The notes under the pieces: generated by a model | What the model was told of the DNA's origin: nothing | Database searches by the model: none | The model's input: only the letters and a program-made list of their open reading frames with translations | From: an uncultured Hyphomicrobiaceae bacterium | GTDB lineage: Bacteria; Pseudomonadota; Alphaproteobacteria; Rhizobiales; CAMYJA01 | Reading direction: 5' to 3' | Assembly: GCA_947258705.1 (NCBI GenBank) | Contig: CAMYJA010000004.1 | Location: 62,001-126,000, forward strand | DNA length: 64,000 nucleotides | Shown here: piece after piece, positions 1 through 10,431 of the stretch | Layout of the letters: every line of letters begins with the position of its first letter | How positions within the stretch are numbered: the first letter of the stretch is position 1 | Translations under genes and position numbers: made by a program

Positions 1-335
1 GCCTGACATTGGGGGCGTTGGCGGAGCTTGAACAGGCATTCGGCGATGAGGACATGCTGGCGCTGGCGCACAGGTTCGAGGAGGGGAGGTTGAGCGCCAA
101 TGACGCGATAAGGGTGATCGCGGCCGGTCTGCGAGGGGGCGGTCTGGATTGTTCGGATGAGGATGTCCGGGGGATGACCGCGGAAAACGGGGCTGTCGGT
201 TATGTCGATATCGTCGCGCGTCTCTTGAATGCGACATTCGGCGTCACGCAGCAAGACGATCCCGTAGGCGGGGAGAAAAAAGGGGGCGGAAATAAAGTGC
301 CGGGAAAGCCAGCGAAAGCCACGATGACGGCCTGA
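1..335 (+). CDS. GTA tail assembly chaperone g10 (5' end outside window)
   Basis: This is the 3' part of a gene transfer agent gp10-family protein (PF11836 type), the tail assembly chaperone that coats the tape measure during tail building. The reading frame is already open at base 3 and the visible text begins LTLGALAELEQAFG, which is internal to this family, so the true start lies upstream; the TTG at 9 is probably not a start. The helical body (LALAHRFEEGRLSANDAIRV) is followed by a Gly/Lys-rich tail from about base 270. The in-frame stop is TGA 333-335. Just before it, bases 302-308 read G GGA AAG in phase, the slippery heptamer of the lambda gpG/gpGT frameshift, so two products (g10 and a longer -1 fusion) are expected. 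Family assignment is strong because six following genes keep the canonical GTA order. Confidence 0.85.
   Translation, partial: LTLGALAELEQAFGDEDMLALAHRFEEGRLSANDAIRVIAAGLRGGGLDCSDEDVRGMTAENGAVGYVDIVARLLNATFGVTQQDDPVGGEKKGGGNKVPGKPAKATMTA
302..308 (+). other. Lambda-type -1 frameshift slippery heptamer in GTA g10
   Basis: The g10 codons here are CCG GGA AAG CCA, giving the heptamer G_GGA_AAG at 302-308. A simultaneous -1 slip re-pairs GGA to GGG and AAG to AAA, and translation then continues from base 308 in the frame that runs to TAA 539-541. Both the heptamer and its phase match the known lambda tail-chaperone site. Frameshifting itself is inferred. Confidence 0.75.
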
Positions 336-541
336 CGGATGGCGCCTTTCCCTGGGAGGAGGCGATGGCGGCCGGGCTCGGCGTATTGAATCTGGCCCCA
401 CGCGATTTCTGGTCAATGACCCCGATTGAGCTCGATGCGGCATTGCGCGGCGCTTTTGGCGGAGAATTAACCGGAACGCATCCCGACCGTGCGGCACTTG
501 ACGGTCTTATTCACGACTATCCAGATATCGAGGGGAGCTAA
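308..541 (+). CDS. GTA tail chaperone extension g10.1, reached by -1 frameshift
   Basis: A 77-codon stretch in the -1 frame relative to g10. It contains GAFPWEEAMAAGLGVLNL, then APRDFWSMTPIELDAALRG, the signature of the short second tail chaperone of GTAs and related phages (Phage_TAC_6/TIGR02216 type, equivalent to Rhodobacter g10.1). The ATG at 365 has a purine-rich SD-like stretch (354-362), so a 58-residue free form is possible. However, the conserved Phe-Pro-Trp-Glu-Glu-Ala lies upstream of that ATG, and between the TAA at 293-295 and base 365 this frame has no ATG, GTG or TTG. Production as a C-terminal extension of g10 through the 302-308 slip therefore explains the conserved residues better. 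It ends one base before the tape measure ATG. Confidence 0.7.
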   Translation, partial: ASESHDDGLTDGAFPWEEAMAAGLGVLNLAPRDFWSMTPIELDAALRGAFGGELTGTHPDRAALDGLIHDYPDIEGS

Positions 542-6100: not shown

Positions 6101-7066
6101 GACCGCTCGCTCCGGGTTCCGAGCGCCGTCTTTTATGGCGTGCCTGACGTGGCTTTTATGGATCTGCCGCTACTGAGCGGCAACGAGAGTGAAGTCGCGG
6201 GATATGTGGCGGCCTTTCAGGCGCCATGGCCGGGGGGCGTGGCGTTTTACCGATCACCGGAAACGACCGGGTATCAGTTGAATGTTCTCGCCGAAGTACC
6301 GGCCATCATGGGCCAGACGATGACGGATCTTAATGAGCATCCTTCGGGCCGTTGGGATTATGGTTCAAAGCTGACCGTAACGCTGGGCTCGGGGCTGCTG
6401 TCATCGGAAACGGATGCGCAGATATTTCAGGGGCGCAATCTGGCGGCTCTCGAGAATTCGGATGGGGAATTTGAGGTCATTCAGTTTCGCGACGTGACGC
6501 TGATCGATGAAAATGTATACGAACTCAGCACATTGCTACGCGGCCAGGGGGGCACCGAAGGCGCGATGCGGATGCCGCTTGCGGCGGGTGCGCGATTTAT
6601 TCTCCTCGATGGGGCCGTCAGACAGGTGGACATGTCGCTCGACGACGTGGCACGGCCGTTTAACTGGACCTTCGGTCCGGGCAACCGGGATATCGGCGAT
6701 CCGGCGTTCGGGACGTTGACGCGGAGTTTTAATGGAATGGGGCTGAGGCCATTGAGCCCGGTTCATGTAACCGGTGAACGGTCCGGCAATGATCTGGAAA
6801 TAAACTGGATCAGGCGCACGCGGATCGGCGGTGACGGCTGGGAGCAGAGCGAGGTACCTTTGGGTGAAGAAACCGAGCTTTACGAAGTCGATATTCTGGA
6901 CGGCATCAACGTTAAACGCACGCTCAACGCCAGCACAGCTCAAGTGTCCTATGGCGAGGCCGAACAGGTCGCCGATTGGGGCAGCGTTCAGGCAGGCTAC
7001 GAGGTGGCGGTTTATCAGATCAGCGGGACGGTCGGGCGCGGTGCAGCAGGCCGGGCGCTGGTTTGA
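3104..7066 (+). CDS. GTA megatron, receptor-binding/host specificity protein (g15)
   Basis: 1320 residues, the largest GTA protein, forming the tail tip that contacts the recipient. The N-terminus is a Gly/Ala-rich hydrophobic segment (SAAGAAVGGAVLPAGISVLG). About residues 430-740 are the GTA TIM-barrel-like domain (VDAFILGSELRGLTQIRHG, VTYAADWSEYFGH, NIDAVGIDVYWPLADWRDG, KPIWFTEIGCPAVDKGANQP). The tail-fibre phage_tail_3-type domain follows (LNGVMSGFVIDRIMSAREAL, PLELAHFLDSFESEG), then a C-terminal beta region with DVTLIDENVYELSTLLRGQG and FNWTFGPGNRDIGDP. Length and domain order match RcGTA g15. It ends eight bases before the next ATG. Confidence 0.93.
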   Translation: MATLVLSAAGAAVGGAVLPAGISVLGTTIAGATIGSQIGALAGSYVDQALFGASGQGRVMEGPRLSDIRVTSSTEGAGLPRIYGRARLAGQIIWATNFDEDIIRTQEGGGGKGVGGSGGGSTTATRIEYRYFGNFAVALSEGEISQIGRVWADGKELNLSEYNYRVHTGREDQLPDSLIEAVEGTGNAPGFRGTAYIVFERMPLKRFGNRIPQLSFELVRAIDEFEGGIRAVNMLPGSGEFVYGTDTVLRDAGNGIVEAENVHTRQGGTDWTVSVDQLEDVLPNTASVSLIVSWFGTDLRVGQCDLLPGVEIADKVTTPYAWEVAGVGRSNAHVVSLDEGRPAFGGTPADASVLSAIADLKARQKKITFYPFVLMDIPTGNSLADPYTGAGSQPAYPWRGRINVDPAPGQTGSPDQTAAAGTQLDAFLGQAQVSDFSISAGKVVYTGPVEWSYRRMILHYAHLCLAAGGVDAFILGSELRGLTQIRHGQSSYPFVNALEALAADVKSILGAQTKVTYAADWSEYFGHQPSDGSGDVHFHLDSLWASPNIDAVGIDVYWPLADWRDGSDHADFLSGVAAVHDLGYLKGNIAGGEGFDWYYKSSADRDLQVRTPITDGNGKPWVFRFKDIKGWWENAHYDRPGGIESATPTAWTAQSKPIWFTEIGCPAVDKGANQPNVFVDPKSSETSLPYYSEGHRDDLIQRRYLQAVLEYYDVAHGEYVAGSNPVSSVYGAPMVDLDNVYCYAWDARPYPAFPSDISSWGDADNWRSGHWLTGRAASAPLAQTIAAVLDEYGFQDYDVGSLNGVMSGFVIDRIMSAREALQPLELAHFLDSFESEGVIRFRHRGANPAVATISADDMAEERGGAQNFSLSRGQETELPAHAKITYISAQGAYRQSVAESRRLAGKSGRVATAQLPIVFEHAQAQALADSWLFDAWSAREAAEFSLPPSRLAIEPSDSVVAEFDGREFLLRITEIGENIRRDVRGLSISPHVFDVNDAADRSLRVPSAVFYGVPDVAFMDLPLLSGNESEVAGYVAAFQAPWPGGVAFYRSPETTGYQLNVLAEVPAIMGQTMTDLNEHPSGRWDYGSKLTVTLGSGLLSSETDAQIFQGRNLAALENSDGEFEVIQFRDVTLIDENVYELSTLLRGQGGTEGAMRMPLAAGARFILLDGAVRQVDMSLDDVARPFNWTFGPGNRDIGDPAFGTLTRSFNGMGLRPLSPVHVTGERSGNDLEINWIRRTRIGGDGWEQSEVPLGEETELYEVDILDGINVKRTLNASTAQVSYGEAEQVADWGSVQAGYEVAVYQISGTVGRGAAGRALV

Positions 7067-7094
7067 GCAATTCATGAAAATCGGGAGATTGAAT

Positions 7095-8369
7095 GTGACC
7101 AATCCGAGCTGGCTGGATCTGGCCTGGCGCGATGTCGGTATCAGGGAAGTTGACGGCACGCCCGGAAACCCGGATGTCATGCGCTATTACAAAGACGTTG
7201 GGGCCGATTGGGTCAAGGATGACGATGTTGCGTGGTGCGCGGCCTTTGCCGGGTCGTGTCTCGAGCGTGCGGGCCTGACGAGTACGCGGTCCCTTATGGC
7301 GCGGTCCTATCTCAAATGGGGACAAAAAATCAGCCGGCCCAGAATGGGCGCCGTCGCCGTTCTGAGGCGGGGTAAAAACAAGAACCTCGGACATGTCGGT
7401 TTTTATGTCGGGGAGAACGGGCGCTCGGTTTTTTTGCTCGGCGGCAATCAAAGCGACAGCGTCAGTATCGGCTCTTACGCCAAATCGCGACTGCTTGGGT
7501 ATCGCTGGCCGGGGAACGCCCCGGCAGCGCGGATAAGATCGACCATAGAACGGTTCGATCATGCGCTTGAGCATGTTCTGGAGTTTGAGGGCGGCTGGAC
7601 GGACGATCCACAGGATCCCGGGGGGCCGACAAATAAGGGAATAACGCTCCAGGTCTACGCGGAGAGCAACGGCGTCAAGATTACGCGTGTAAACCGCAAG
7701 CGGCTGATGCGCGGCCTGCGCCGCATCGACGATGATTTCGTCAGGGAGATATATCTCGAGCGCTACTGGAAAAAGGCGCGTTGCCCGGAACTCCACCCCT
7801 CGCTTGCGTTCATTCATTTCGACGCGGCTGTCAATCACGGGCCTGGGCGGGCGGTGCGTATGCTGCAGCGCGCGGTGGGAACGGAGGTGGATGGCGAGAT
7901 AGGCCCGCTCACTCTTCGCGCCGCGCATACGGGCAACGTGGCACAGGCGGTACGGGAATACGGGCGGATCCGGGACCGGTTTTACCGCTCGCTTTCTCAT
8001 TTTCCGCGCTTCGGGCGTGGCTGGCTCCGGCGTCTTCGCGCCGCGGTCTCCAGGGCGCTCGTTCTTGCGGGCAATCATTCCATTGAAAATCGACGAAAGG
8101 AAAAGACGACCATGACAAATGAACCGAAATGGTGGGGGCAATCGATGACGATTTGGGGCGCGATCGTGACCGCGCTGACGACAGTTGTGCCGGTTGTCGG
8201 GCCGCTTCTGGGCTATGACATCTCGGCTGAGATGGTGGCGCAGTTCGGCGAGCAGATCGCGCGCTTTATCCAGGTCACTGGCGGGATTGTCGGTACGATC
8301 ATGACGGTGTTCGGCCGCCTCAGGACGTCAGCGCCGCTTGAACGGCGCAAGATGAGTTTCGATTTCTAA
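7095..8369 (+). CDS. Endolysin (TIGR02594 + GH108-type muramidase) fused to a holin-like C-terminus
   Basis: 424 residues from GTG 7095, which has GGGAGATT 5-12 bases upstream; an in-frame ATG at 7074 would add seven residues. About residues 1-145 are a TIGR02594/CHAP-like peptidase (WLDLAWRDVGIREVDGTPGN, DDVAWCAAFAGSCLERAGL, LGHVGFYVGE). About 155-325 are a GH108 N-acetylmuramidase (HVLEFEGGWTDDPQDPGGPT, catalytic Glu in FEGG) with a peptidoglycan-binding tail (RAVGTEVDGEIGPLTLRAA). From about residue 340 the frame runs without a stop into two hydrophobic segments (AIVTALTTVVPVVGPLLGY, FIQVTGGIVGTIMTVFG), a holin-like module. An ATG at 8112 has AAGGA ten bases upstream, so the holin part could also be made alone. 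The gene directly follows g15 and likely belongs to GTA release. Confidence 0.8.
   Translation: MTNPSWLDLAWRDVGIREVDGTPGNPDVMRYYKDVGADWVKDDDVAWCAAFAGSCLERAGLTSTRSLMARSYLKWGQKISRPRMGAVAVLRRGKNKNLGHVGFYVGENGRSVFLLGGNQSDSVSIGSYAKSRLLGYRWPGNAPAARIRSTIERFDHALEHVLEFEGGWTDDPQDPGGPTNKGITLQVYAESNGVKITRVNRKRLMRGLRRIDDDFVREIYLERYWKKARCPELHPSLAFIHFDAAVNHGPGRAVRMLQRAVGTEVDGEIGPLTLRAAHTGNVAQAVREYGRIRDRFYRSLSHFPRFGRGWLRRLRAAVSRALVLAGNHSIENRRKEKTTMTNEPKWWGQSMTIWGAIVTALTTVVPVVGPLLGYDISAEMVAQFGEQIARFIQVTGGIVGTIMTVFGRLRTSAPLERRKMSFDF
8112..8369 (+). other. Possible internal start: holin-like small membrane protein
   Basis: The ATG at 8112 (MTNEPKWWGQSMTIWGAIV) lies in frame inside the endolysin gene and carries AAGGA at 8097-8101. 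The 85-residue product would have two membrane segments and a basic tail (GRLRTSAPLERRKM), the usual shape of a small holin. Separate translation is inferred; no stop codon separates it from the endolysin. Confidence 0.5.
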
Positions 8370-9975: not shown

Positions 9976-10431
9976 ATGGGTCCACTAACATCATATTTCG
10001 CCGAGTTCGGCGCCTGGAACTGGCTGATATTCGGTGCATTGCTGTTCATTCTCGAAGCTGTGGTTCCCGGTGTCTTTCTCATCTGGTTCGGGGTTGCGGC
10101 CATTGTGACCGGCATTATCGCTTTTGCCGTGGATATCGGCTGGCAGGCGGAGCTTCTCATTTTCATGGTGCTTGCGGTGCTGAGCGTTTTTGCCGGGCTG
10201 AAAATGGCCGGATACGGCCTCAGCGGGGAAGAGCAGAACTCGAATCTCGGTCATCGTGGCGAGCGCTATGTCGGACAGGAATTCATTATCGAGGAACCGA
10301 TCCGCAATGGCCGGGGCAAGGTGCGCCTCGGCGATACGCTGTGGCCGGTCAAGGGCGGGGACGCCGACAAGGGCGCGACCGTCCGGGTGACGGGCGTCGA
10401 TGGCAATGCGCTTGTGGTGGAGGTGGTTTGA
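9976..10431 (+). CDS. NfeD family membrane protein
   Basis: 151 residues. Three to four hydrophobic segments (NWLIFGALLFILEAVVPGVF, FGVAAIVTGIIAFAVDIG, LLIFMVLAVLSVFAGL) are followed by a soluble OB-fold end (RYVGQEFIIEEPIRNGRGKV, LGDTLWPVKG...ATVRVTGVDGNALVVEVV), the typical short NfeD1b layout. ATG 9976 has GGAAGGAA upstream. It is co-transcribed with the SPFH gene and probably forms its membrane complex. Confidence 0.9.
   Translation: MGPLTSYFAEFGAWNWLIFGALLFILEAVVPGVFLIWFGVAAIVTGIIAFAVDIGWQAELLIFMVLAVLSVFAGLKMAGYGLSGEEQNSNLGHRGERYVGQEFIIEEPIRNGRGKVRLGDTLWPVKGGDADKGATVRVTGVDGNALVVEVV

Follow-up and report, generated by a model that had tools for sequence, protein, structure and literature searches.

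The window analyzed here, a 64,000-nt stretch of contig CAMYJA010000004.1 from an uncultured Hyphomicrobiaceae bacterium, begins inside a head-tail gene cluster arranged in the order of the gene transfer agent (GTA) RcGTA. Completed on the upstream contig, this cluster comprises terminase, portal, protease, capsid, adaptors, g9, g10, g10.1, a short tape measure gene and g12-g15. The g10 and g10.1 genes sit between the tape measure gene and g9, which encodes the major tail protein and has a PDB match to Rcc01691, the RcGTA tail tube protein of solved structure (E 7e-50). By gene content and order, we assign the g10/g10.1 locus (Table 1) to the tail-chaperone pair of an RcGTA-type GTA, an element for which packaging of host DNA and inheritance along with the chromosome are expected. 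The window genome is the sole member of its family in the genome collection, and among named relatives those nearest to it are Hyphomicrobiales, including Hyphomicrobium and Methyloceanibacter.

The last codons of g10, which is read in frame 3, are ...GTG CCG GGA AAG CCA GCG AAA GCC ACG ATG ACG GCC TGA, and they contain the heptamer GGGAAAG in the phase G_GGA_AAG. An earlier interpretation made from the letters alone (hereafter the sequence-only reading) had proposed that this heptamer is identical to the −1 frameshift site of the lambda gpG/gpGT pair and joins g10 to g10.1. Its base positions and phase were verified, and the same GGGAAAG lies at 10109-10115 of the lambda record J02459, in the same phase in gene G. 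In the −1 frame, where the heptamer supplies the codons GGG (302-304) and AAA (305-307), a TAA closes the frame just upstream, after which it stays open through g10.1 (PF09550); the encoded protein also passes the TIGR02216 "rcc01693 family" model (57.1 bits vs a cut-off of 56.1). As had been claimed, the Phe-Pro-Trp (FPW) motif opening the g10.1 domain is encoded before ATG 365, and this ATG is preceded by no ATG, GTG or TTG in the open frame; a CTG at 332-334, overlapping the g10 stop, had been overlooked.

To place this junction among its relatives, g10/g10.1 pairs were drawn from genomes of the same order and class, from Rhodobacteraceae found with RcGTA g9 and from named genomes, giving 232 non-redundant pairs in which g10.1 lies in the −1 frame (205), in the +1 frame (22) or in the same frame after a stop (5). 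The −1 frame alone is no evidence of frameshifting, because an ATGA-type overlap of start and stop also produces it. Two features were recorded at every −1-frame locus: a usable ATG, GTG or TTG, and an in-phase X_XXY_YYZ heptamer falling in the final 75 nt of g10, where the −1 frame is open. The results show a heptamer in 90 of 102 start-less loci vs 27 of 103 start-bearing ones (Fisher 2.4e-20), an association that persists without Rhodobacteraceae (Fisher 2.2e-14). When the last 22 g10 codons were shuffled (400 shuffles), 23.5 of the 102 start-less loci were expected to carry a heptamer, with a maximum of 37. Among the start-less members of the first 120 loci, 81 heptamers were in phase, compared with 9 in the two other phases combined. 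TTTCCCT at the domain's own Phe-Pro codons accounts for 14 of these 81; such heptamers, being generated by Phe-Pro coding, were discounted as slippery sites.

Two of the tests respect relatedness, and their support is moderate: with each of the 49 families among the first 120 loci represented by a single locus, the median p was 4e-5 and the worst 0.009, while independent pairs on a g9+g10+g10.1 tree fell in the predicted vs the opposite direction at 8.6:0.8 and 9.4:0.7 (median p 0.022 and 0.012). The association was replicated, with the same rules unchanged, in 72 IMG/VR loci (43 of 45 start-less vs 12 of 27 start-bearing; p 1.3e-6), many of them 14-16 kb and probably GTAs; in the search of viral contigs for g10 relatives, a single query had returned 0 close relatives and an alignment query 80. 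Across the whole junction alignment, comprising 232 genome loci and 76 phage or IMG/VR loci, in-phase heptamers are strongly and specifically tied to start-less loci, which supports the frameshift proposed by the sequence-only reading. No permanently fused single ORF carrying both domains was found among the surveyed pairs.

The heptamer of the window, G_GGA_AAG, is reported to be highly shift-prone in E. coli (review, PMC5009743). It occurs in phase at the same junction in 14 other relatives, unchanged across families with divergent flanks, and in three families it stands directly before the g10 stop (PGK followed by the stop). The label "exact lambda-type" fits the window and does not extend to the group, where GGGAAAG is one of several heptamers used, together with AAACCCT/C and CCCTTTC/G/T. 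Start-less heptamer loci show excess RNA folding just 3′ of the heptamer relative to control windows (mean z −0.72, paired p 2e-6). The choice of TTT vs TTC in FPW, a probe of selection on CCCTTT, did not discriminate, since TTT is preferred in all classes.

In at least 13 of the 27 genome loci having both a heptamer and a start codon, TGA comes straight after the heptamer, whose final T supplies the first base of the TTG "start" (typically AAACCCT + TGA). Their sister loci retain the heptamer with TAG, or have AAACCCC with TGA, and hence have no TTG. Such an arrangement is seen in Nitratireductor, Mesorhizobium, Phyllobacterium and others (L200, L215, L222, L225, L247, L250), where, within AAACCCTTGA, A_AAC_CCT abuts the g10 stop and forms a TTGA overlap.

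We then considered whether the start-less part of g10.1 is translated, using 51 start-less loci in which g10 has ended before the domain. The FPW Trp is retained in 50 of these 51 and the Pro in 47, whereas the codons preceding FPW are far more variable, and the Met equivalent to ATG 365 is replaced by Ile, Leu or Phe in 14. In an AlphaFold model of g10.1 (pLDDT 80), the first predicted helix begins with the FPW Trp. Since FPW is kept, the Met is replaceable and the helix is predicted to run from the Trp, ribosomes must arrive from upstream; if not by way of the heptamer, g10.1 in the window could be reached only by a restart at the CTG or from another, unseen non-AUG start.

The sequences show the signal and its phase, the absence of a canonical start, constraint acting on the part of g10.1 that lacks a start, and a link across relatives between heptamers and start-less loci. 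From these we infer that ribosomes slip at the heptamer, and we consider a −1 frameshift that fuses g10 to g10.1 the best explanation, with a probability of about 0.87. According to this model, most ribosomes would finish g10 at its TGA and release a short chaperone, while a minority would slip back by one base on G_GGA_AAG, re-pairing from GGA to GGG in the P site and from AAG to AAA in the A site. These would read the −1 frame to position 541 and produce a g10-g10.1 fusion, the equivalent of lambda gpGT, with a predicted junction leading from ...VPGK to ASESHDDGLTDGAFPWEE. The lambda analogy suggests that the g10 part would coat the tape measure protein, that the g10.1 domain of the rarer fusion would recruit the major tail protein, and that the slip rate would set the ratio of short chaperone to fusion.

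Three other explanations were weighed. Coupled restart at CTG 332-334 after the g10 TGA would yield a separate g10.1 still containing FPW, making the heptamer coincidental, and the CTGA does stand where relatives have ATGA, GTGA or TTGA starts. CTG is, however, a very poor start codon, preceded in this case by a Shine-Dalgarno match of just 3 bases. Most GGGAAAG relatives stop with TAA or TAG and have no CTG there, and a start-less locus with a TGA stop at this point can only have C before it, A, G and T being excluded by definition. Restart at CTG would moreover leave the link between heptamers and start-less loci unexplained, and we hold it to be unlikely. An internal start at ATG 365, giving a short free g10.1 with FPW left untranslated, has a better Shine-Dalgarno match (5 bases), and at many +19 loci the TGA of g10 overlaps the equivalent Met as TGATG. 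Against it stand the conservation of FPW and the replacements of the Met described above, the start of the predicted first helix and of both domain models at FPW, upstream of the Met, and Shine-Dalgarno strength before the Met, in which start-less loci do not exceed start-bearing ones. As the main source of g10.1 this start is very improbable; initiation there could add an N-terminally truncated free g10.1 as a minor second product in the window.

GTA clusters decay in some lineages, and the missing start codon would also be expected if the pair were decayed or mis-assembled and g10.1 unexpressed. This explanation, to which we give hardly any weight, is largely refuted by the recurrence of the start-less −1 arrangement in more than 130 non-redundant loci; in addition, both domains score well, the frames are intact, and so are the neighboring genes g9 and g11-g15.

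Several observations weigh against the frameshift. At the window locus alone the heptamer could be chance: over the 11 possible positions, an in-phase X_XXY_YYZ of any kind is expected in 13% of cases by base composition and in 27% under synonymous recoding, and GGGAAAG itself in 1-8%. Given that chance at one locus is not negligible, the significance comes from the relatives rather than from the window. The phylogenetic pair test is moderate, its p ranging from 0.0005 to 0.5 over pairings (upper ends 0.5 and 0.3). There is no notable nested stem 3′ of the window heptamer (309-379, z +1.1; pseudoknots were not searched for), although downstream stimulatory RNA structure is frequent in chaperone frameshifts without being required or a defining feature. 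Twelve start-less loci have no standard heptamer. Among them, four carry the near-variant C_CCT_TCC. In four relatives (L015, L024, L039, L077) CTGA is present while a heptamer and a canonical start are both missing, which also favors restart at CTG in the window, where the CTG overlaps the g10 stop.

In start-less L038, L042, L102 and L176, C_CCT_TCC replaces CCCTTTC, and a relaxed slippery site is possible; the four CTGA relatives are candidates for CTG restart or for an unrecognised signal.

Homologues with a normal start codon in the same gene arrangement, which the sequence-only reading had named as evidence against frameshifting, are present in numerous relatives, and the Rhodobacteraceae closest to RcGTA are among them. 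They do not refute it, because most such loci have no heptamer, that is, they use the other of two modes. GTAs thus appear, from the sequences surveyed, to alternate between frameshift fusion and coupled restart, and this repeated exchange is an unexpected second finding. We think it probable, if less firmly than the frameshift itself, that there are two largely exclusive supply modes (fusion, or a separate start mostly overlapping the stop) with many switches between them, and that the RcGTA clade lost the frameshift, so that the fusion is dispensable.

Table 1. Features of the g10/g10.1 junction and the gene that follows (window coordinates unless marked L002)
Feature	Position	Strand	Basis or remark
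g10 3′ part (gpG-like tail assembly chaperone 1, GTA-gp10)	1..335	+	PF11836 Phage_TAC_11, 108.7 bits, E 1.6e-31
g10 start, outside the window	TTG L002:9919 or ATG about L002:9940		
−1 slippery heptamer G_GGA_AAG, in phase with g10	302..308	+	sequence
−1 open frame, giving the g10.1 extension (79 residues from heptamer)	296..541	+	bounded by TAA 293-295 and TAA 539-541
g10.1 domain (gpT-like chaperone 2), FPWEEAM...IHDYP	347..526	+	PF09550 Phage_TAC_6, 57.4 bits, E 1.9e-15
CTGA: −1-frame CTG (332-334) overlapping g10 stop TGA (333-335)	332..335	+	rival non-AUG restart site
ATG, first canonical start in −1 frame, within first helix of g10.1 domain	365..367	+	
g11, short tape measure protein, 195 aa	542..1129	+	NF058675 RcGTA_tape and PHROG tape measure matches

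The g11 match to NF058675 RcGTA_tape scores 165.8 bits, under the model cut-off of 220. Just 3′ of g15, one long ORF (window 6831-8369) has matches of the CHAP-like, GH108 and peptidoglycan-binding types, and its C-terminal part is hydrophobic; these matches place putative lysis functions directly after the GTA cluster.

Programmed frameshift chaperones are already known in phages; what would be new here is the class of element. GTAs would join the users of programmed frameshifting, with annotation splitting the product or truncating it at an internal Met, and the most studied GTA would be atypical of Hyphomicrobiales in its chaperone supply. If this is true, GTAs offer natural before/after pairs, with and without the chaperone fusion, and such pairs of related elements allow testing of a long-standing question: why tailed phages keep the frameshift fusion. 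In line with the sequence-only reading, which knew of no such case in a GTA, we found no description of GTA chaperone frameshifting in the openly searchable literature, a scope that excludes subscription papers, notably Xu et al. 2004 (Molecular Cell), where an earlier mention is possible.

RcGTA has homologous genes, g10 and g10.1 (rcc01692/rcc01693), in the same order as the window; one study names g10 and g10.5 tail chaperones 1 and 2 and leaves frameshifting unmentioned (PMC11409702). The Rhodobacteraceae nearest RcGTA (g9 82-92% identity; L143-L172, L114, L115) have ATG, GTG or TTG for g10.1, mostly in ATGA/GTGA-type stop overlaps, and a heptamer in 0 of 24 −1-frame loci; R. capsulatus itself, sought by 100% g9 identity, is absent from the sampled genomes. 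Start codons and no heptamer in this clade would explain the silence of the GTA literature on frameshifting.

In the metagenomic and cultured phages MW202777, MW202613 and OP947159, whose chaperones are of the PF11836 type, the second chaperone lies in the −1 frame with an in-phase GGGAAAC or CCCTTTA, as in the window arrangement; unlike the window, these are full phages or phage contigs, and they are distant (28-41% identity). The deposited annotations of these phages give two separate CDS, and for the GGGAAAC pairs of MW202777 and OP947159 (L255, L257) the records therefore lack the likely product of the frameshift. The phage loci (L255-L257), very few records, suggest that the frameshift may have come with a phage ancestor. 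Foldseek comparison of the g10 and g10.1 models gave no meaningful matches in the PDB, and weak chaperone-annotated matches among viral models (E 0.056).

With lambda-type chaperone frameshifts, the window shares a phased heptamer, a start-less open −1 domain, the gene position and a signal kept in relatives. Both lambda gpG/gpGT and the window have GGGAAAG in the same phase near the end of the first chaperone gene, 15 nt (5 codons) before the G stop in lambda and 24 nt (8 codons) before the g10 stop here. The protein families differ, the window pair being PF11836/PF09550, as does the length of the tape measure protein (195 aa vs 853 in lambda). Shifting in lambda is low-level, with a gpG:gpGT ratio of about 30:1 (PMC5009743), and for two chaperone genes of the HK97-related cluster 6-7% was measured (PMC3711429).
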